A stretch of 64,000 bases of DNA from Pseudogemmobacter lacusdianii (lineage in GTDB: Bacteria; Pseudomonadota; Alphaproteobacteria; Rhodobacterales; Rhodobacteraceae): positions 124,001-188,000 of the forward strand of contig NZ_JAVDBT010000004.1 in the NCBI RefSeq assembly GCF_030848395.1, written 5' to 3'. The notes beneath the pieces are model-generated. The model ran no database searches and was not told the origin of the DNA. It saw only the letters and a program-made list of their open reading frames with translations. A program made the translations under genes and the position numbers. Positions 27,286-50,589 of the stretch are shown here, piece after piece (the stretch's first letter is position 1; every line of letters begins with the position of its first letter).

Positions 27286-27314
27286 TTGACAGCTTGCTTT
27301 CCCCGCATCATGCA
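27286..27314 (+). promoter_or_regulatory. Likely promoter of the btuB operon
   Basis: A perfect TTGACA -35 box at 27286-27291 is followed 15-17 bases later by ATCATGCA as the -10 region. This would start transcription near 27320, just before the cobalamin riboswitch. Confidence 0.55.
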
Positions 27315-27324
27315 GAGCCCACCT

Positions 27325-27480
27325 TAGGTTCTGGGCGTCACACCCCGGATGAAAAGGGAATGCGGTGCAATTCCGCAGCTGCCCCCGCAACTGTAAGCGG
27401 CGAGCTTGGATGGACAAAAGCCACTGGGAAACCGGGAAGGCCCATCCGCGCCCCGACCCGCAAGCCAGGAGACCTGCCAG
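27325..27480 (+). promoter_or_regulatory. Cobalamin (adenosylcobalamin) riboswitch
   Basis: The conserved blocks are present in order: AGGTTCTGGGCGTC at the 5' end, GAAAAGGGAATGCGGTGCAA, GCTGCCCCCGCAACTGTAAG, AGCCACTGGGAAACCGGGAAGG, and the B12 box region CAAGCCAGGAGACCTGCC at the 3' end. Binding of a cobalamin coenzyme is expected to shut off the btuB operon that follows. The distance to btuB leaves a 3' region with alternative hairpins. Confidence 0.93.
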
Positions 27481-27554
27481 GGTGATCACCCTTACTTCCG
27501 TGCGAGGGGCGCGGAGGCAGGCGGATACCGCCAGTGGTGACGTTCACCCCGGGC

Positions 27555-40531: not shown

Positions 40532-42364
40532 TTAGTCCTCCATCGCCTCCAGCTCATCGATGAAGCCCGAGATCATGTTCAGACCCTTGTCCCAGAAGGC
40601 CGGATCCGACAAATCAAGGCCGAAGGGGGCCAGCAGCTCTTTGTGGTGTTTGGAGCCGCCAGCTTTCAGCAGATCGAAATACTTCGCCTCAAAGTCGGGC
40701 AAACCACCCTCATAGGCGGCATAAAGCGCGTTCACCAAACCATCGCCGAAAGCATAGGCATAGACGTAGAAGGGCGAGTGCACGAAATGCGGGATATAGG
40801 CCCAGAAGGTCTCATATCCGTCCATGAAGTCAAAGGCATCGCCAAGGCTTTGCGCCTGCACCGACATCCACAAAGCGTTGATGTCATCGGGCGTCAGCTC
40901 GCCTTCCGCGCGGGCGGCGTGCAGCTTGCATTCGAAGTCGTAGAAGGCGATCTGGCGGACCACCGTGTTGATCATATCCTCAACCTTGCCCGCCAGCAGC
41001 GTCTTACGCTCGGCCGGGGTTTTGACCTGCGACAGCAGTTGGCGGAAGGTCAGCATCTCACCGAAAACCGAAGCGGTCTCGGCCAAGGTCAAAGGCGTGG
41101 CCGAGAGCAATTCGCCCTGACCGGCCGCCAGAACTTGGTGCACACCGTGGCCCAGCTCATGCGCCAAGGTCATGACATCGCGGGGTTTTCCAAGGTAGTT
41201 CAGCATCACATAGGGATGCACCGTGGTCACCGTCGGATGGGCAAAGGCGCCCGGAGCCTTGCCGGCTTTGACGCCCGCATCGATCCAGCCCTTGTCGAAG
41301 AAGGGCTTGGCCAAAGCTGCCATCTCAGGCGAGAAGGCGCCGTAAGCTTCCATCACCGTCTTCTCGGCGGTGGCCCAATCGACGGTCTTCGGCTGCTCGA
41401 TCGGCAAGGGCGCGTTGCGGTCCCAGACTTGCAGCGTCTCAAGCCCCAGCCATTTCGCCTTCAGCCGGTAATAGCGGTGCGACAGCTTGGGGTAGGCCGC
41501 GACCACGGCATTGCGCAGGGCTTCCACCACCTCAGGCTCGACATGGTTCGACAGATGCCGGCCATGCTGCGGCGAGGGCATCTTGCGCCAGCGGTCATGG
41601 ATCTCTTTTTCCTTGGCCAGCGTGTTGTGGACGCGGGAGAAGAGCTTGATCTGCTTGCCAAACCCTTCCGCCAAGGCGCGCGCGGCGGCCTCACGGCGGG
41701 GGCGGGCGGTATCGGTCAAAAGGTTCAGCGTCGCCTCAAGGTTCAGCGACTCATCCTCACCTGCTACGGCGAACATCATCCCGGCGAGCGTCTCATCAAA
41801 GAGCTTGTTCCAAGCCGAGGCACCGACAACGGATTCGTCATGCAAGAAGCGCTCCAACTCATCCGAGAGCTGGTGTGGGCGCATGGCGCGCAGACGCTCA
41901 AACACCGGTTTGTAGCGCGCAAGGTCGGCATTCTCGGCCAGAAGACGATCCAGATGGGCATCTTCCAAGCGGTTGAATTCAAGGCTCCAAAACACCAAAG
42001 GCGTGGTCGCATCGGTGACGCGGCCCTCGGCATCGGCCATGAATTTGGCGCGCTCGGAATCCATGGTGTTTTGGTAGTAGCGCAGGCCCGCATAGGACAT
42101 CAGACGCCCGGCGGTGATGTCGATCTGCTCATAGGCCTGCACGGCGGCTAGAAGGCCCACTGCATCCAAACCGGCCAGCTTGCCCTCATAGGAGGCGGAA
42201 AAATCGGCGCAAGCTTGGTCAAGCCAATCCATATCGCGGGCAAATTCCGGCGCATCTGGCGAGGCGTAGAGATCGGTCAGATCCCATTCCGGCAGACGAC
42301 CGAACTCATCGCCCTTGGCAAAGGCTGAGGCGCCGAAAGTCCGGCGGGGCAGGGGCAGGGTCAT
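40532..42364 (-). CDS. pepF: M3-family oligoendopeptidase F
   Basis: 610 residues. The zinc site HExxH is in MTLAHELGHGVHQVLA, with the downstream Glu in LTLAETASVFGEMLTF. The N-terminal WDLTDLYASPDAPEF is typical of PepF/M3 enzymes. It degrades oligopeptides in the cytoplasm. It has AAAGGATG before the ATG and is divergent from the ATP-grasp/Anbu operon, whose 345-base spacer carries both promoters. A functional link to that operon is possible but not shown. Confidence 0.92.
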   Translation of the reverse strand: MTLPLPRRTFGASAFAKGDEFGRLPEWDLTDLYASPDAPEFARDMDWLDQACADFSASYEGKLAGLDAVGLLAAVQAYEQIDITAGRLMSYAGLRYYQNTMDSERAKFMADAEGRVTDATTPLVFWSLEFNRLEDAHLDRLLAENADLARYKPVFERLRAMRPHQLSDELERFLHDESVVGASAWNKLFDETLAGMMFAVAGEDESLNLEATLNLLTDTARPRREAAARALAEGFGKQIKLFSRVHNTLAKEKEIHDRWRKMPSPQHGRHLSNHVEPEVVEALRNAVVAAYPKLSHRYYRLKAKWLGLETLQVWDRNAPLPIEQPKTVDWATAEKTVMEAYGAFSPEMAALAKPFFDKGWIDAGVKAGKAPGAFAHPTVTTVHPYVMLNYLGKPRDVMTLAHELGHGVHQVLAAGQGELLSATPLTLAETASVFGEMLTFRQLLSQVKTPAERKTLLAGKVEDMINTVVRQIAFYDFECKLHAARAEGELTPDDINALWMSVQAQSLGDAFDFMDGYETFWAYIPHFVHSPFYVYAYAFGDGLVNALYAAYEGGLPDFEAKYFDLLKAGGSKHHKELLAPFGLDLSDPAFWDKGLNMISGFIDELEAMED

Positions 42365-42709
42365 GATGCATCCTTTGCTATGGGGCCGTGAGATCGGCCT
42401 TGCCCGGTGTCATCTGGGCTTATGGCCCATCTAGGCGCGGCCGGGGGGGCGCTTCAACCCCAGCTGCCGCGTCAAAAGCGTCAAATCCATCCCAGATGGA
42501 GCCAGATGGCCGCGGCGGCGTTACGGATAGGCATTTGGCGTGCCTGCGCCCATCCGCGCGGGTTTTGCTTGCCGGATCGGTGGATTTGCCGAAAAACTGT
42601 GCAAGTGGTTGCATGTTAGACGGGGATTTCGACGGTTTTCTGCGCGCGGGGGCTTTACCGGGGCTGGGCAGAGACGTTGGATGGAGCTTAGCGTAAAGGG
42701 AGTGGCAGA
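42365..42709. other. Divergent spacer between pepF and the ATP-grasp/Anbu operon
   Basis: 345 bases with no gene recognised. GATGG motifs recur near 42490-42515 and a poly-G tract lies at about 42443. Promoters for both directions must lie here, but no strong -35/-10 pair was seen; TGCATGTTAGAC near 42611 is the best -10-like element toward the operon. Confidence 0.4.
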
Positions 42710-44179
42710 GTGGCAGCACAGAGCAGCGGCATTCGATCAGTCGGTCCATTGCAAGGCGGCGCAGGGCCAAACATCTTTGACGAGATGACTGGCACCGGCA
42801 GTGAGCTGCGCCCGCCCTATGCGCGGTTGCAAGACTGGGTCCAATCGATGCCGCGCGAGTTGCGCAACCTCAAACAGGCCGAGGCGGAGGAGTTGTTTCG
42901 TCGCATCGGGATCACCTTTGCGGTTTACGGCGAGGGCGGCGATCCCGATCGGCTGATCCCGTTCGACATGTTCCCTCGGGTGTTCTCGGCGCTTGAATGG
43001 TCGAAACTGTCACGCGGAATCAAGCAGCGCGCGCGGGCGCTGAACGCGTTTTTGGTCGATGTCTACGGGCGCGGTGAGATCATTCGAGCGGGTCGCATTC
43101 CGGGCCGCTTGGTCTATCACAATGCGGCCTATGAGAAGGAAGTGGCGGGCTTCGTGCCGCCAAAAGGCATTTATTCTCATGTCGTTGGCATTGATATTGT
43201 CCGCACCGGGCCGGACCAATTCTATGTGCTTGAGGACAATTGCCGCACGCCCTCGGGGGTGAGCTATATGCTGGAATCCCGCGAGATTATGATGCGGATG
43301 TTCCCCGAGCTTTTCCGCGGCAATCGGATTGAGCCGGTCGATAATTATTCCGAAGTGTTGCGCCGCACCTTGGCCTCGGTCGCGCCCGCGAAATGCAAGG
43401 GCGAGCCGAATATCGTTATTCTCACCCCCGGCCATTTCAACTCGGCCTATTACGAACATTCGCTTTTGGCCGATTTGATGGGGGTGGATCTGGTCGAGGG
43501 GCAAGATCTCTTCGTTGATGGCGAGTTTGTCTATGCCCGCACCACCCAAGGTCCAAAGCGCGTTGATGTGATCTATCGGCGCATCGATGACAGCTTTTTG
43601 GACCCTTTGTGCTTCCGCCCCGACAGTATGGTGGGCGTGGCGGGGCTGATGGATGTTTACCGCGCGGGCGGGGTTTCGATCTGTTCGGCTCCCGGTGCGG
43701 GCGTGGCGGATGACAAAGCCGTTTATACCTATGTGCCGGAAATGGTACGATTTTATCTGGGTGAAGAGCCGCTTTTGGACAATGTGCCCACTTGGCAATG
43801 CGGCAAGGCCGACGATCTGGCCTATGTGTTGGATAAGCTGCCAGAACTGGTGGTGAAAGAGGTGCATGGCTCGGGCGGCTATGGGATGTTGGTGGGCCCG
43901 AAAGCCTCGAAAGCTGAGATCGAGGTGTTTCGCAACCTGATCCAAGCCAAGCCGCATAATTACATCGCCCAGCCGACGCTGGCTCTGTCGACGGTGCCGA
44001 CCTTTGTTGAAGAGGGCGTGGCGCCGCGCCATGTGGACCTGCGCCCCTATTGCTTGGTGGGCGAGAGGATTGAGCTGGTGCCGGGCGGGCTGACCCGTGT
44101 GGCGCTGAAAGAGGGCTCATTGGTGGTGAACTCAAGCCAAGGCGGCGGGGTCAAAGACACGTGGGTGCTGGCCGAATGA
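42710..44179 (+). CDS. Circularly permuted type 2 ATP-grasp protein (amidoligase-like)
   Basis: 489 residues from a GTG with GGGAG about ten bases upstream. It contains FFVYGEGG-like residues (FAVYGEGGDPDRLIPFD), DQFYVLEDNCRTPSGVSYMLE, IVILTPGHFNSAYYEHSLLA and LVVKEVHGSGGYGMLVGP, a set characteristic of the DUF404/DUF407 circularly permuted ATP-grasp family. Such proteins are thought to form amide or peptide bonds with ATP. It heads the operon with the alpha-E, transglutaminase and Anbu genes. Substrate unknown. Confidence 0.88.
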   Translation: MAAQSSGIRSVGPLQGGAGPNIFDEMTGTGSELRPPYARLQDWVQSMPRELRNLKQAEAEELFRRIGITFAVYGEGGDPDRLIPFDMFPRVFSALEWSKLSRGIKQRARALNAFLVDVYGRGEIIRAGRIPGRLVYHNAAYEKEVAGFVPPKGIYSHVVGIDIVRTGPDQFYVLEDNCRTPSGVSYMLESREIMMRMFPELFRGNRIEPVDNYSEVLRRTLASVAPAKCKGEPNIVILTPGHFNSAYYEHSLLADLMGVDLVEGQDLFVDGEFVYARTTQGPKRVDVIYRRIDDSFLDPLCFRPDSMVGVAGLMDVYRAGGVSICSAPGAGVADDKAVYTYVPEMVRFYLGEEPLLDNVPTWQCGKADDLAYVLDKLPELVVKEVHGSGGYGMLVGPKASKAEIEVFRNLIQAKPHNYIAQPTLALSTVPTFVEEGVAPRHVDLRPYCLVGERIELVPGGLTRVALKEGSLVVNSSQGGGVKDTWVLAE

Positions 44180-44255
44180 TCCAAGCCCCTCGTTTCTCCG
44201 CCATGGCCGTTTTGCGGGCCAAAGGCGCCACCCTGTCTGCAGCTAAGGGGGATGC

Positions 44256-45206
44256 ATGCTAAGCCGCACCGCCGAAAATCTTTACTGGATCGCCCGCTAT
44301 ATGGAGCGCGCCGATACCTCGGCCCGACTTTTGGAAGTCGGCAGCCGGATCAGCCTTTTGCCCTCGGCGCATGGCTATCGCAGCGAATGGGACAGCCTCT
44401 TGCAGGCCTGCGGCATGGCGCCCGGCTTTGCCGCGAAATACGGCGATCCGGTGCAGCGCAACTTGGAAAGTTGGCTGTTCTTTGACCGCGACAACCCCTC
44501 ATCGGTGGCAAGCTGCATCACGGCGGCGCGCGAGAACGGGCGGATCGTACGCACGGCTTTGACCTCACAGGTTTGGGATGCGCTCAACACCGCTTTCCAA
44601 GAGCTGAAACGGCTGGAGAGAGAAGAACGTTCCTCGCTGGAACTGTCGCAGATGACCGATTGGGTGATGCGCCATGCCGCCATGCTGCGCGGCGCGATCG
44701 ATGCCACGCTTTTGCGCGACGATGGGTTCAACTTCTTGAATATCGGCTATTATCTGGAGCGTTGCGACAACACCGCCCGGCTGATGGATGTGAAATATTA
44801 CGTCCTGCTGCCGCGGGTGGATTTCGTCGGCTCTGGCCTTGATAACTATCAATGGACCACGCTTTTGCGCGCGATGGGGGCGCATCGGGCCTTTCATTGG
44901 GCTTACGGCGGCGAGGTGACGGCCAGCAAGATCGCGCATTTTCTGATCCTGAACCCGCAAAGCCCGCGCGCGCTGATCACCTGCATTGCGGGCACCGCCA
45001 ACCATTTGAACCGGCTGAGCAAAGCCTATGGCCGCGCGTCGCAATCCCAAGCCATGGCGGCGGAAATGCTGGCGCGGCTGGAAGAGGAAACCGTGGACCG
45101 GATCATGGATGAGGGCTTGCATGAATATCTGACCGGCTGCATCCGCGAGACCGCCGCTTTGGGGCAGGCGGTGCATGAGGACTTTTTCAGCGGGGAGGCG
45201 CGGTGA
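44256..45206 (+). CDS. Alpha-E domain protein (DUF403)
   Basis: 316 residues, nearly all helical. It opens MLSRTAENLYWIARYMERAD, the conserved start of the alpha-E family, and carries a second such repeat, FLNIGYYLERCDNTARLMDV, halfway through. AAGGGGGA precedes the ATG. The family is found almost only beside circularly permuted ATP-grasp genes and is presumed to be its partner, possibly binding the substrate or product. It overlaps the transglutaminase start by one base. Confidence 0.9.
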   Translation: MLSRTAENLYWIARYMERADTSARLLEVGSRISLLPSAHGYRSEWDSLLQACGMAPGFAAKYGDPVQRNLESWLFFDRDNPSSVASCITAARENGRIVRTALTSQVWDALNTAFQELKRLEREERSSLELSQMTDWVMRHAAMLRGAIDATLLRDDGFNFLNIGYYLERCDNTARLMDVKYYVLLPRVDFVGSGLDNYQWTTLLRAMGAHRAFHWAYGGEVTASKIAHFLILNPQSPRALITCIAGTANHLNRLSKAYGRASQSQAMAAEMLARLEEETVDRIMDEGLHEYLTGCIRETAALGQAVHEDFFSGEAR

Positions 45207-46015
45207 TGCTTTTGGATGTCGATCATCTGTCGCTCTACCGCTACGCGGCCCCGGTGCGCTCGGTGGTGCAGAGCCATCGGCTGACACCCTCGCGTTGCGC
45301 GTCCCAAAAGGTCGTGCAATGGGAGGTGCAGGTCTCTGGCGCGACCAAAGGTGCCGGGTTCACTGATGGTGCGGGCGATGCCATTCAAGCTTGGACCGTC
45401 TCGGGCCCGGTGACCGAGGTGGCGGTGACGGTACGCGGGCGGGTTGAAACCAGCGACACAGCTGGTGTGCTGCGCAGCCACCGCGAAAGCGCGCCGCCCG
45501 AGGTTTATCTGCGCGATACACCGGCCACGGCCTTGGATGGGGCCTTGCGCGACTTGGCGGCCGGGGTTCCCGGTGGCGAGACGCTGTCGATGTGCCATGA
45601 TTTGTCGCATGCGGTGGCCGAGGCGATCGCCTATCGCCCCGGCACCACCACCGGGCGGACCACGGCCGCCGAAGCTTTGGCGCAAGGCATGGGGGTTTGT
45701 CAGGACCACGCCCATGCTTTGATCGCCTGTGCGCGCGTGCATGAGGTCCCGGCGCGCTATGTCTCGGGTTATCTCTTTGCTGATGCCTCGGGTGCGGCGC
45801 ATGAGGCAGCGCATGCTTGGGCCGAGCTTTTCGTGCCGGGCCTTGGCTGGGTGGGCTTTGACCCGGCCAATCGCTGCTGCCCGGATGATCGCTATATCAG
45901 GCTTGGCTCGGGCTTTGATGCCAGCGCCGCCGCACCCATCCGCGGCATCGCGCGCGGCATGGCGGGCGATGGCGCATTGGATGTGCGGCTGTCCGTCGTG
46001 GCCGCGCAGCAGTAA
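45206..46015 (+). CDS. Transglutaminase-like cysteine protease family protein
   Basis: 269 residues. The N-terminal part (about 1-80) has an immunoglobulin-like beta domain with LYRYAAPVRSVVQSHRLTPS. The catalytic triad is visible: Cys in GMGVCQDHAHALIACAR, His in EAAHAWAELFVPGLGW and Asp in GFDPANRC. It could cleave or form a peptide or isopeptide bond, which is the expected counterpart to the ATP-grasp ligase. The ATG at 45206 is part of TGATG at the alpha-E stop with GGGGAGG upstream. Confidence 0.9.
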   Translation: MLLDVDHLSLYRYAAPVRSVVQSHRLTPSRCASQKVVQWEVQVSGATKGAGFTDGAGDAIQAWTVSGPVTEVAVTVRGRVETSDTAGVLRSHRESAPPEVYLRDTPATALDGALRDLAAGVPGGETLSMCHDLSHAVAEAIAYRPGTTTGRTTAAEALAQGMGVCQDHAHALIACARVHEVPARYVSGYLFADASGAAHEAAHAWAELFVPGLGWVGFDPANRCCPDDRYIRLGSGFDASAAAPIRGIARGMAGDGALDVRLSVVAAQQ

Positions 46016-46182
46016 GAGCGCGGACGGACAGGGCGGCGTCATTGGCCCGTGCACTGCGAAATGCTGTGGTGCGGCGACCCTACGTCGGACCCCTTGTCAC
46101 GCAGCGGCAGTTGGGGTTTTCTCGGGCCGGGCAAGGCGCTAGCTAAAACGCTTGGTGCAGTATCAAGCAGGCTGAGGGTGAG

Positions 46183-46905
46183 ATGACGTATTGTGTGGGA
46201 CTATTGTTGAACGAGGGTATCGTCTGCCTGTCGGACACGCGCACCAATGCTGGGCTCGACAATATCTCGACCTATCGCAAGATGTTCACCTTTGAAGAAC
46301 CGGGCGAGCGGGTGATTGTGATCATGACCGCCGGCAGCCTTTCGGTCAGCCAAACCACTTTGGCTTTGCTGCGCGAGGCGATTGATGCGCCCGATGCGAC
46401 GCCTGAGACCAGCATCATGCTGGCACCCACCATGTTGCAAGTGGCCGGAATTGTTGGCGACGCTCTCGCCGGGGTGCGCGAAGAGATCGACCACAAGCTC
46501 TCGGCCAGCCAGGGGGCGAGTGCGAGTATGATTGTGGCGGGGCAGCGCAAAGGGGGCGCCATGCGGCTCTTCTTGATCTATCCCGAGGGCAATTTCATCG
46601 AAGCCACCGAGGACACGCCCTTCCTCCAAATTGGCGAGCATAAATACGGCAAGCCGATCCTGGACCGGATTGTGCGGCCCGACAGCTCTTTGGCCGATGC
46701 GCAAAAGGCAGTGCTTTTGAGTATGGATTCGACCCTGCGCTCGAACCTCTCGGTGGGGATGCCGCTGGATCTTTGCGTGATTGAGCGCGACCGCTGTGTC
46801 ATCACCGAACGCCGCCGGATTGAGGCGGGGGATCCGCAATTCCGTGCGATGTCCGAAGCTTGGTCCAACGCATTGCGCGAAGGCTTCCAACGTATCCTCC
46901 TTTAA
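46183..46905 (+). CDS. anbu: Anbu, proteasome-related N-terminal nucleophile peptidase
   Basis: 240 residues beginning MTYCVGLLLNEGIVCLSDTRTNAG. After removal of Met, Thr2 would be the N-terminal nucleophile, as in proteasome beta subunits, and the Asp and Lys (YRKMFTF) that support it are in place. There is no propeptide. The family assembles into ring or helical oligomers, unlike the 20S barrel. Its association with ATP-grasp, alpha-E and transglutaminase genes is known from comparative genomics. A 167-base gap separates it from the transglutaminase gene, so it may also have its own promoter. Substrates are unknown. Confidence 0.9.
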   Translation: MTYCVGLLLNEGIVCLSDTRTNAGLDNISTYRKMFTFEEPGERVIVIMTAGSLSVSQTTLALLREAIDAPDATPETSIMLAPTMLQVAGIVGDALAGVREEIDHKLSASQGASASMIVAGQRKGGAMRLFLIYPEGNFIEATEDTPFLQIGEHKYGKPILDRIVRPDSSLADAQKAVLLSMDSTLRSNLSVGMPLDLCVIERDRCVITERRRIEAGDPQFRAMSEAWSNALREGFQRILL

Positions 46906-46929
46906 ACACGTGGCTGCGCGCCGCCCGAT

Positions 46930-46950
46930 CTAAGCCCTAAGCCCTAAGCC
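46930..46950. repeat. Three tandem CTAAGCC heptamers
   Basis: CTAAGCC occurs three times head to tail, 25 bases after the Anbu stop. Likely a slippage repeat with no clear role. Confidence 0.7.
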
Positions 46951-47102
46951 AGCGAAGACCTGCCGATCACAGAGTGTTGTGAGGGCATACGGGAACCTTG
47001 CCGCCATCTCAGCGTTTCCAGCCGAGCATTGCTCTGCCGGTTGCCTGTCCTTTTGGCCCCCGAGGCAATGCCATTGATATTCTTTGGTGTTTTGGGTGGT
47101 TC

Positions 47103-48059
47103 ATGGATCTGCAGCTTCTGAAAACCTTTCTGGAAGTGGCCGCGACGGGCTCTTTCGGGGCGGCCGCGGGTCGGCTTTTCGTCACGCAATCCGCGGTGTC
47201 CTTGCGCGTGCAGCGGCTGGAGGATGAGCTTGGCCGCGCCTTGTTTGAGCGTGGCAATGGCGGGGTTGCCTTAACCGCAGCCGGCCGCGAATTCCGCAGC
47301 TCTGCCGCGATGATCCTGACCAATTGGGAGCAAGCCCGGCAACGGGTAAGCGCGCTTGATGATATGCCGGCCTCGATGGTGATCGGCGCACAAGGCTCGC
47401 TTTGGCCCCGCTTTGGCTTTGGCTGGCTTGACCGGCTGCGCGCAGCATTGCCGCAGGTGCAGATCCGCGCCGAAATGGGCCGCAATGAGGCGTTGAACGA
47501 GACGCTGCTCTCGGGGGCGGCGCAAGCGATGCTGTGCTTTGAGCCGATGAACCGGCCCGGTCTGGTCAATGAGCGGCTGATGGAGGATCGGCTGGTCATG
47601 GTCAGCTCTTGCCCCGATGCCACGATAGAAAGCGTCGGCGACAGTTATGTCATGGTCGATTGGGGCCCTGAATTTTGCCGCTTCCACCATGAGGCCCTGC
47701 CGCAGCTTTCCGAGCCGCGATTGGTTTTGGCCTTGGGGGCCGTGTCGGCCTGGTATCTCGCCAGCAGGTCTTTGGCTGCTTACTTACCTGAGCGTTATTT
47801 GCGCGCGCCTTTGGGGCAAATGGACAGCGATGAGGCCGCGCAATCTGGGGCTTTGCTGCGGGGGGAGCCGCGCGAATTGGCTCAATTCGGGCCGCGCCAG
47901 CTTTATCCCGTGCAAGGCGCGCCCAGTTTTACCCAGACGGCATGGGTGGTTTGGCGCGAAGATATGGCGCAGCAATTGCGCAATGTTGCGGCCAAGACAC
48001 TGTTCGACACGGTGAAATGCAGCGAAAAAGCCGCTTTTAACCAGTTCGAAATGCACTGA
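47103..48059 (+). CDS. LysR-family transcriptional regulator
   Basis: 318 residues. The N-terminal winged helix-turn-helix reads LLKTFLEVAATGSFGAAAGR then TQSAVSLRVQRLEDELG, the classical LysR pattern, followed by ALFERGNGGVALTAAG. The C-terminal co-inducer domain is less conserved. The start at 47103 is set by family alignment; the open frame extends upstream to 46998. There is no divergent partner gene, so its target is not suggested by position. The next gene downstream encodes an outer-membrane protein. Confidence 0.9.
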   Translation: MDLQLLKTFLEVAATGSFGAAAGRLFVTQSAVSLRVQRLEDELGRALFERGNGGVALTAAGREFRSSAAMILTNWEQARQRVSALDDMPASMVIGAQGSLWPRFGFGWLDRLRAALPQVQIRAEMGRNEALNETLLSGAAQAMLCFEPMNRPGLVNERLMEDRLVMVSSCPDATIESVGDSYVMVDWGPEFCRFHHEALPQLSEPRLVLALGAVSAWYLASRSLAAYLPERYLRAPLGQMDSDEAAQSGALLRGEPRELAQFGPRQLYPVQGAPSFTQTAWVVWREDMAQQLRNVAAKTLFDTVKCSEKAAFNQFEMH

Positions 48060-50512: not shown

Positions 50513-50589
50513 GCAGCTTTAGCTCAGTTGGTTAGAGCGCTAGATTGTGGATCTAGAGGTCCCCCGTTCAAGCCGGGGAAGCTGTACCA
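50513..50589 (+). tRNA. tRNA-His (GTG anticodon)
   Basis: 77 bases including an encoded CCA. D-stem GCTC/GAGC, anticodon stem CTAGA/TCTAG with loop TTGTGGA (anticodon GTG), T-stem CCCCG/CGGGG with loop TTCAAGC. The acceptor stem GCAGCTT pairs with AAGCTGT, giving a G1:U72 wobble pair and discriminator A73. The base before G1 is T, so the near-universal G-1:C73 of tRNA-His is absent; this is the unusual alphaproteobacterial form. Confidence 0.96.

Follow-up and report, generated by a model that had tools for sequence, protein, structure and literature searches.

An Anbu operon in Pseudogemmobacter lacusdianii and a possible amide-bond cycle in nitrogen starvation

The window analyzed here is a 64,000-nucleotide stretch of the Pseudogemmobacter lacusdianii genome (contig NZ_JAVDBT010000004.1, positions 124,001 to 188,000), in which four genes on one strand encode, in this order, a circularly permuted ATP-grasp ligase, an Alpha-E protein, a transglutaminase-like protein (TG) and Anbu, an early-branching relative of the proteasome with solved structures and no known job (Table 1). 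The set is the canonical Anbu operon published for Pseudomonas and Yersinia bercovieri, with the same four families, the same order and the same Met-Thr start of Anbu (PMC5666114, PMC6376114; papers cited by such numbers are represented here by excerpts of their text). An earlier note on this DNA had named the four families, their order, their common strand and the 167-base gap between the TG gene and Anbu, all of which agree with the open reading frames and with Pfam, and it had rightly given the co-occurrence as known. This copy adds to a known operon, both the idea of tagging and the response of Anbu to nitrogen having been in print previously, and no solved function for the operon was met in our literature searches. 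The comparison presented below tells genes that are inseparable (ATP-grasp with Alpha-E) from one that is accessory (Anbu), identifies close relatives with and without the module, and leads to a tentative proposal in which the operon makes and breaks amide bonds under nitrogen starvation.

Table 1. Features of the Anbu operon region in the window (aa, amino acids; nt, nucleotides; E, expect value)
Feature	Position	Strand	Remarks
Circularly permuted ATP-grasp ligase, split type, 489 aa	42710-44179	+	GTG start; TTG at 42749 possible
Alpha-E protein, 316 aa	44256-45206	+	PF04168, E 3.7e-89
Transglutaminase-like protein (TG), 270 aa	45203-46015	+	Bact_transglu_N (PF08379) and Transglut_core (PF01841)
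Anbu, 240 aa	46183-46905	+	Pfam Proteasome, E 4e-07; PDB Anbu matches
Candidate operon promoter, CTTTAC-N18-TTGGAT	42653-42682	+	27 nt before the ATP-grasp GTG start
Candidate Anbu promoter element, TTTTCT-N17-TAGCTA	46117-46145	+	In the 167-base gap
M3 family oligoendopeptidase, pepF-like	40532-42364	-	TIGR02290 above cut-off, TIGR00181 (pepF) below

The ATP-grasp product matches CP_ATPgrasp_2 (PF14403) at E 2.2e-161 and the PDB sequence 3n6x at E 1.4e-195, and the TG gene starts at GTG 45203 or ATG 45206, overlapping the Alpha-E stop. At E <= 0.001 Anbu matched five PDB sequences (best E 4.2e-78), of which three carry the name Anbu and two the name Peptidase, one of the latter, 5lox, being called Anbu in PMC8665760; no HslV or 20S chain was matched at that threshold, which places the protein in the Anbu subfamily. 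PDB relatives were found for the ATP-grasp, TG and Anbu products, Alpha-E being the exception.

One draw of 150 Pseudomonadota genomes served for all four family searches, and the families were found in 54 (Anbu), 84 (Alpha-E), 84 (circularly permuted ATP-grasp) and 83 (Bact_transglu_N) of them. The ATP-grasp was counted above the cut-off, two matches below it (G021, G135) being dropped, and Anbu was searched with the window's single protein at E <= 0.001, so that distant Anbu could be missed. Alpha-E and ATP-grasp occupy the identical 84 genomes, neither occurring alone, and the genome of the window has one of each and no fused copy. The pair is present in 53 of the 54 Anbu genomes, the exception being G094, and with the single-sequence search Anbu was not detected in 31 of the 84 genomes with the pair. 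Ligase and peptidase were therefore not always found together in this profile.

All 54 Anbu loci were retrieved, mostly as stretches of about 15 kb each. The exact order ATP-grasp, Alpha-E, TG and Anbu recurs in 34, which is the conserved neighbourhood whose lack was to have counted against the earlier note, and the gaps between TG and Anbu at these canonical loci range from 18 to 662 bases (median 60.5), that of the window being the fourth largest. A TG gene on the same strand lies within 700 bases of Anbu in 46 of the 54 loci, at six loci Anbu stands without any further member of the four families in the retrieved stretch, and two loci have the ligase pair and no TG, with Alpha-E and ATP-grasp divergent in one of them (L081) and simply present in the other (L068). 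At ten of the 46 TG-adjoining loci the nearest TG is at least 800 aa long; the one of the ten that was tested (L066) joins TG to DUF2126, annotated as a putative amidoligase, and a similar TG-DUF2126 protein occurs at a near-family locus (L103). On the other side of Anbu, on the opposite strand, eight of the ten large-TG loci have a gene in which ATP-grasp and Alpha-E are fused. A general rule that ATP-grasp and Alpha-E always lie on the opposite strand where a large TG adjoins Anbu was rejected, only three loci being without them on the strand of Anbu within a 4-kb limit. In a genome of the window's own family, a second protein with the TG core and no Bact_transglu_N match is encoded directly upstream of ATP-grasp (L034, 11152-11991, minus strand). 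The commonest additional neighbours of at least 90 aa were an ABC-transporter ATPase cluster and a short-chain dehydrogenase cluster (at 12 and at 7 of the 54 loci, respectively), each identified from one member and both belonging to ubiquitous families; among open reading frames of that size, which the search covered, no specific neighbour recurs beside the 54 Anbu loci.

The catalytic residues of the set are highly conserved. Anbu begins with MTYC at 51 of the 54 loci and with MSYC, MTYA and VTYC once each, the last of which would start on GTG. As the earlier note had anticipated, Thr is the second codon, available as the nucleophile once Met is removed, and no propeptide precedes it; T2 is kept at 53 loci, with Ser at the remaining one, and D18 and K33 are invariant, these Thr, Asp and Lys residues having the active-site roles described in PMC6376114. 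A Cys at residue 4 (window 46192-46194), two residues after the catalytic Thr, is likewise found at 53 of the 54 loci. Among the 54 loci there are 47 distinct small TGs, every one of which has the triad of C166, H204 and D220, and equivalents of these residues are present in 11, 11 and 10, respectively, of 11 large TGs. ATP-grasp residues were counted on distinct sequences only (52 split, 37 fused): G389, G390, Y391, G392, D443 and N474 occur in all 52 split homologues and M393 in 51, and the residues of the window protein that would form a Gly-rich loop and the acidic and amide ligands are intact. These residues fit the idea that the ligase could form amide bonds and that TG and Anbu could cut them. 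In the fused copies, G390, G392, M393, D443 and N474 are found in none of the 37 sequences, Y391 in two and G389 in 11, in a gapped stretch of the alignment. Because five positions are kept in none, the ATP site of the fused form looks degenerate, and the protein may be a degenerate ligase, a pseudo-enzyme or an enzyme of changed chemistry. In the fused genes L107-L139 the Gly-rich ATP loop is largely lost, as are two positions that probably supply ligands.

A structural model of one fused protein, the Magnetococcales homologue of locus L107, had a mean predicted local distance difference test score (pLDDT) of 78.7 and a predicted template-modelling score (pTM) of 0.76, and its fold matched 3n6x (E 1.9e-27), after which came glutathione and homoglutathione synthetases, YgiC and YjfC; the match to trypanothione synthetase was weaker (E 1.7e-3 to 6.2e-3). 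The AlphaFold2 model of the window's Alpha-E protein (36 sequences, mean pLDDT 86.4, pTM 0.88) matched no PDB fold at E <= 0.001, the best value being 0.63, and the best hit of a PDB profile search (E 0.57) was taken as chance. Parts 9-149 and 160-307 of Alpha-E are homologous to each other (hhalign probability 99.2, E 1.8e-19), each half having an ER motif (E17-R18 and E168-R169). As modelled, Alpha-E is an all-helical protein with an internal duplication, for which the PDB searches gave no solved relative. We met no mention of this duplication in the excerpts of the literature, and no search was aimed at it by name.

Within the genus, two promoter-like elements accompany the operon. A scan of 19 loci, for which the shuffle expects 0.18 loci with the pattern, included 11 of the genus, and in 10 of these the candidate operon promoter stands before ATP-grasp. 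A twelfth locus (G158) has it as well, which brings the total to 11 out of 12 ATP-grasp-bearing genomes of the genus, G160 being without it. Among control upstream regions, scanned over 230 as against 426 bases, 2 of 163 matched, one of which is the Anbu element. An inverted repeat, TGCAA-N4-TTGCA (window 42600-42613), was seen by eye upstream of the candidate operon promoter, and GGTTGCAT lies at a similar offset in four congeners, a possible activator site.

The candidate Anbu element, generalized as TTTTCW-N17-TANNNA, stands 56-71 bases before Anbu in exactly four of the 21 genus and near-family loci (the window, L086, L087 and L088), and these four are the closest by Anbu identity (100, 92, 90 and 87%). 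Since the synonymous divergence of Anbu from the window is about 1 in the other three, conservation of the element by descent alone is unlikely. Anbu itself occurs in all 13 genus genomes, with TG-Anbu gaps of 167 bases in the window, 124 in G151, 337 in G152 and about 9-34 in the eight remaining canonical loci of the genus. In G158 the intact run of ATP-grasp, Alpha-E and TG is on one contig and Anbu on another, in unrelated surrounding sequence, and the element has stayed with Anbu. As judged from these sequences, Anbu is probably also transcribed from a promoter of its own in the sub-clade of the window. The separate control of Anbu suggested by the earlier note is thus plausible for this sub-clade but not for the family as a whole, given the median gap at the canonical loci. 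That the 167-base gap contains no promoter and Anbu is merely the last gene of one transcript is quite possible, even if we lean against it: a search of 42200-47200 gave no sigma-70 consensus site, the gap showed nothing like a terminator, and its length is at most 130 bases in 30 of the 34 canonical loci, but a single transcript accounts poorly for an element common to four genomes at such synonymous divergence and for its persistence beside Anbu in G158. In L086 the TTTTC block lies within what resembles, by eye, a GC stem-loop, so it may be something other than a promoter; it may also be read as a terminator, although none is listed in the gap of the window.

In a further congener, G157, neither Alpha-E nor ATP-grasp was found anywhere in the genome, and TG is reduced to a decayed remnant of its last third just before Anbu (L098, 6228-6563). 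The Anbu of G157 is intact, with T2, D18 and K33 present and a pairwise ratio of nonsynonymous to synonymous substitution (dN/dS) of 0.14-0.20. Lineage-specific amino-acid changes are more numerous in it than in the Anbu of its congeners (11 against 3, 10 against 8 and 11 against 2), so it may be slowly decaying.

The operon is linked to nitrogen by promoter boxes in relatives and by published expression data. A -24/-12 box for sigma-54, scored at >=10 of 12 positions against the consensus, precedes 13 of 47 split ATP-grasp genes compared with 7 of 368 control genes of the same loci (P 4e-9), a comparison on which we rely because the shuffle for sigma-54 preserved base composition only. The 13 matches span seven genera, and boxes were found before none of the eight fused ATP-grasp genes and before 1 of the 54 Anbu genes. 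In Pseudomonas putida, PP_2685 (proteasome beta-like) and PP_2688 (ATP-grasp) are listed with log2 values of 4.44 and 3.99 for NaNO3 over NH4Cl, in a table shared with urea and nitrate genes (PMC8050072), and PP2685-2687 stand at 11.1, 6.6 and 7.1 in the first column, seen without its full heading, of a nutrient-limitation table (PMC3325844). In Burkholderia cenocepacia, I35_5080-83 are down 6.0-9.4 fold in an ntrC mutant and so fall in the NtrC regulon (PMC5491218), and the domains of the operon co-vary with urea metabolism in marine metagenomes (PMC3597751). Together the boxes in relatives and the published expression sets suggest a tie between the operon and nitrogen starvation; for Anbu the link is not new, as both PMC5666114 and PMC6376114 say that it rises in P. 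putida when nitrogen is limiting.

Building on the observed gene content and order, the conserved active-site residues, the co-occurrence and the sigma-54 boxes of some relatives, and on the published nitrogen induction in relatives, we propose that the operon is a nitrogen-starvation cycle of amide bonds with a ligase half (ATP-grasp and Alpha-E) and a hydrolase half (TG and Anbu), a reading to which we give somewhat less than an even chance. Specifically, ATP-grasp and Alpha-E would act as a single ligase, coupling a carboxylate with an amine at the expense of ATP by chemistry of the glutathione-synthetase type, with Alpha-E as the substrate-holding or lid subunit. The exclusive pairing of the two families, together with their natural fusion in one open reading frame in further loci, argues for one ligase, and an ATP-grasp of a Yersinia operon is reported to release phosphate from ATP (PMC6376114). 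TG, through Cys-His-Asp, and Anbu, through Thr, would then transfer or hydrolyse the amide bonds of the product, and their position side by side in 46 loci suggests that the two steps are linked. Scarce nitrogen would in this way be captured, shuttled or recovered in the form of small amide or peptide conjugates, and the aim would not be to tag proteins in a ubiquitin-like manner. Since Anbu was not detected in 31 of the ligase genomes, the product of the ligase would be useful without Anbu. The ligase may be a complex, TG and Anbu may act in consecutive steps, the reaction may run in the direction given here and its substrate may be a small molecule. A related idea, in which protein breakdown in nitrogen starvation feeds the transglutaminase, is offered in PMC6376114. 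A fuller version of our proposal is rather doubtful as a whole. In it, ATP-grasp and Alpha-E are two halves, neither found without the other, of a ligase for nitrogen starvation that has not been described before, TG and Anbu serve as the release enzymes that match this ligase, and Anbu is being uncoupled within the genus. The signs of uncoupling are the promoter-like element before Anbu, present in four species, the physical separation of Anbu from the other genes in one of these four, and its survival in another congener that has lost the other three genes.

Several observations weigh against this amide-bond cycle. Two genomes, G157 and G094, have Anbu without the ligase pair, and the co-occurrence P values of 3e-44 and 4e-17 are indicative only, as Fisher tests overstate strength when the genomes counted are related. 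The match to synthetase folds was obtained with another organism's fused copy, which may be degenerate, and not with the ATP-grasp of the window. Five of the 13 sigma-54 matches span the start of the longest open reading frame or fall shortly within it, where the true start may be further on. No box in the window scored >=10 of 12, and the candidate promoter upstream of its operon is of another kind; nitrogen control in this organism is therefore only presumed. The B. cenocepacia genes as listed in PMC5491218 name no Anbu, and PMC5666114 cites unchanged Anbu expression under various conditions. Finally, the assays described in the excerpt of PMC6376114 detected neither peptidase activity of Anbu nor a specific interaction with its operon partners, and PMC5666114 argues for protein degradation and deems a role in peptide synthesis less likely.

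Two other explanations, both of which we consider unlikely, give Anbu a different role. In the first, which the earlier note had put forward as a self-contained pathway of tagging and degradation, ATP-grasp, Alpha-E and TG mark proteins with a tag made of a peptide or an amino acid, and Anbu degrades the tagged protein or removes the tag. Anbu is indeed a proteasome homologue with conserved Thr, Asp and Lys, its Thr-1 binds epoxomicin and MG132 (PMC5666114), and tagging and deubiquitinase-like hypotheses are listed in PMC6376114. A self-contained pathway is not supported, however, in view of the ligase-pair genomes in which Anbu was not detected, the congener that keeps Anbu after loss of the rest, the lack of any specific extra gene of at least 90 aa recurring at the 54 loci, and the assays cited above; moreover, a partner AAA ATPase was not apparent according to PMC5666114, and neither PMC5666114 nor PMC6376114 found complexes of Anbu with its partners. 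The pattern of ligase, TG and Anbu together with nitrogen regulation favours an amide-bond cycle over a ubiquitin-like tag.

In the second explanation, close to hypotheses in PMC6376114 and PMC5666114, Anbu is a general ATP-independent peptidase for turnover in nitrogen shortage that is linked only by transcription to an independent module of amide synthesis. Its survival without the module in G157 under dN/dS of 0.14-0.20, the six loci without another family gene nearby, the promoter-like element of its own in the sub-clade and the nitrogen induction in P. putida all fit such a peptidase. It is harder to reconcile with the presence of the ligase pair in nearly every Anbu genome and with the operon order at 34 loci, and the excess of lineage-specific changes in the Anbu of G157 may indicate a protein in decay.

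Compared with known systems, the window differs from the published Anbu operon in its long TG-Anbu gap with the sub-clade element and in its pepF, LysR and DUF481 neighbours, which were seen only in its genus and near family. The cluster with the fused ATP-grasp/Alpha-E gene, often with a TG-DUF2126 gene, is found at Magnetococcales, Hydrogenophilales and Verrucomicrobiaceae loci; it shares the domain families and, in the large TGs tested, the TG catalytic residues, but its ATP-grasp site looks degenerate and the genome of the window has split genes only. Ligases of the glutathione/glutathionylspermidine synthetase type resemble the operon ligase by window sequence (3n6x) and by the fold of the fused homologue (8fbz, 3kal and 7uk8 YgiC), whereas the ATP-grasp of the window stands with Alpha-E and TG. 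The Rlo operon of Pseudomonas aeruginosa also combines an ATP-grasp, a transglutaminase-fold protein and a peptidase, but its peptidase is aspartic, its TG is an inactive membrane protein, and no Anbu or Alpha-E is named in the excerpt (PMC12239564).

As for the flanks, the earlier note had placed pepF divergent to Anbu and built an argument on this, but the gene from which pepF diverges is that of the ATP-grasp, at the opposite end of the operon from Anbu, and the argument rests on a misplaced neighbour. The pepF gene adjoins the operon or Anbu in 13 of the 21 genus and near-family loci, and it was rejected as a functional partner because it borders ATP-grasp and is near Anbu at none of the other 53 phylum-wide loci. 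On the 3' side Anbu is followed by a LysR-type regulator on the same strand and also by a DUF481 gene; LysR, DUF481 and GFO neighbours were rejected as partners, none having a match at E <= 1e-10 in those 53 loci, where the only weaker matches were for LysR in L033 (5e-10) and for GFO in L080 (1e-6). A tag gene in the 167-base gap was likewise rejected, the frames there being of 31, 34, 45 and 39 aa, plus two tails of longer frames overlapping TG, with no evidence of a gene. Elsewhere in the window lie a cobalamin riboswitch (27309-27494, 128 bits) and a tRNA-His (GTG) at 50513-50589, the sole tRNA found.

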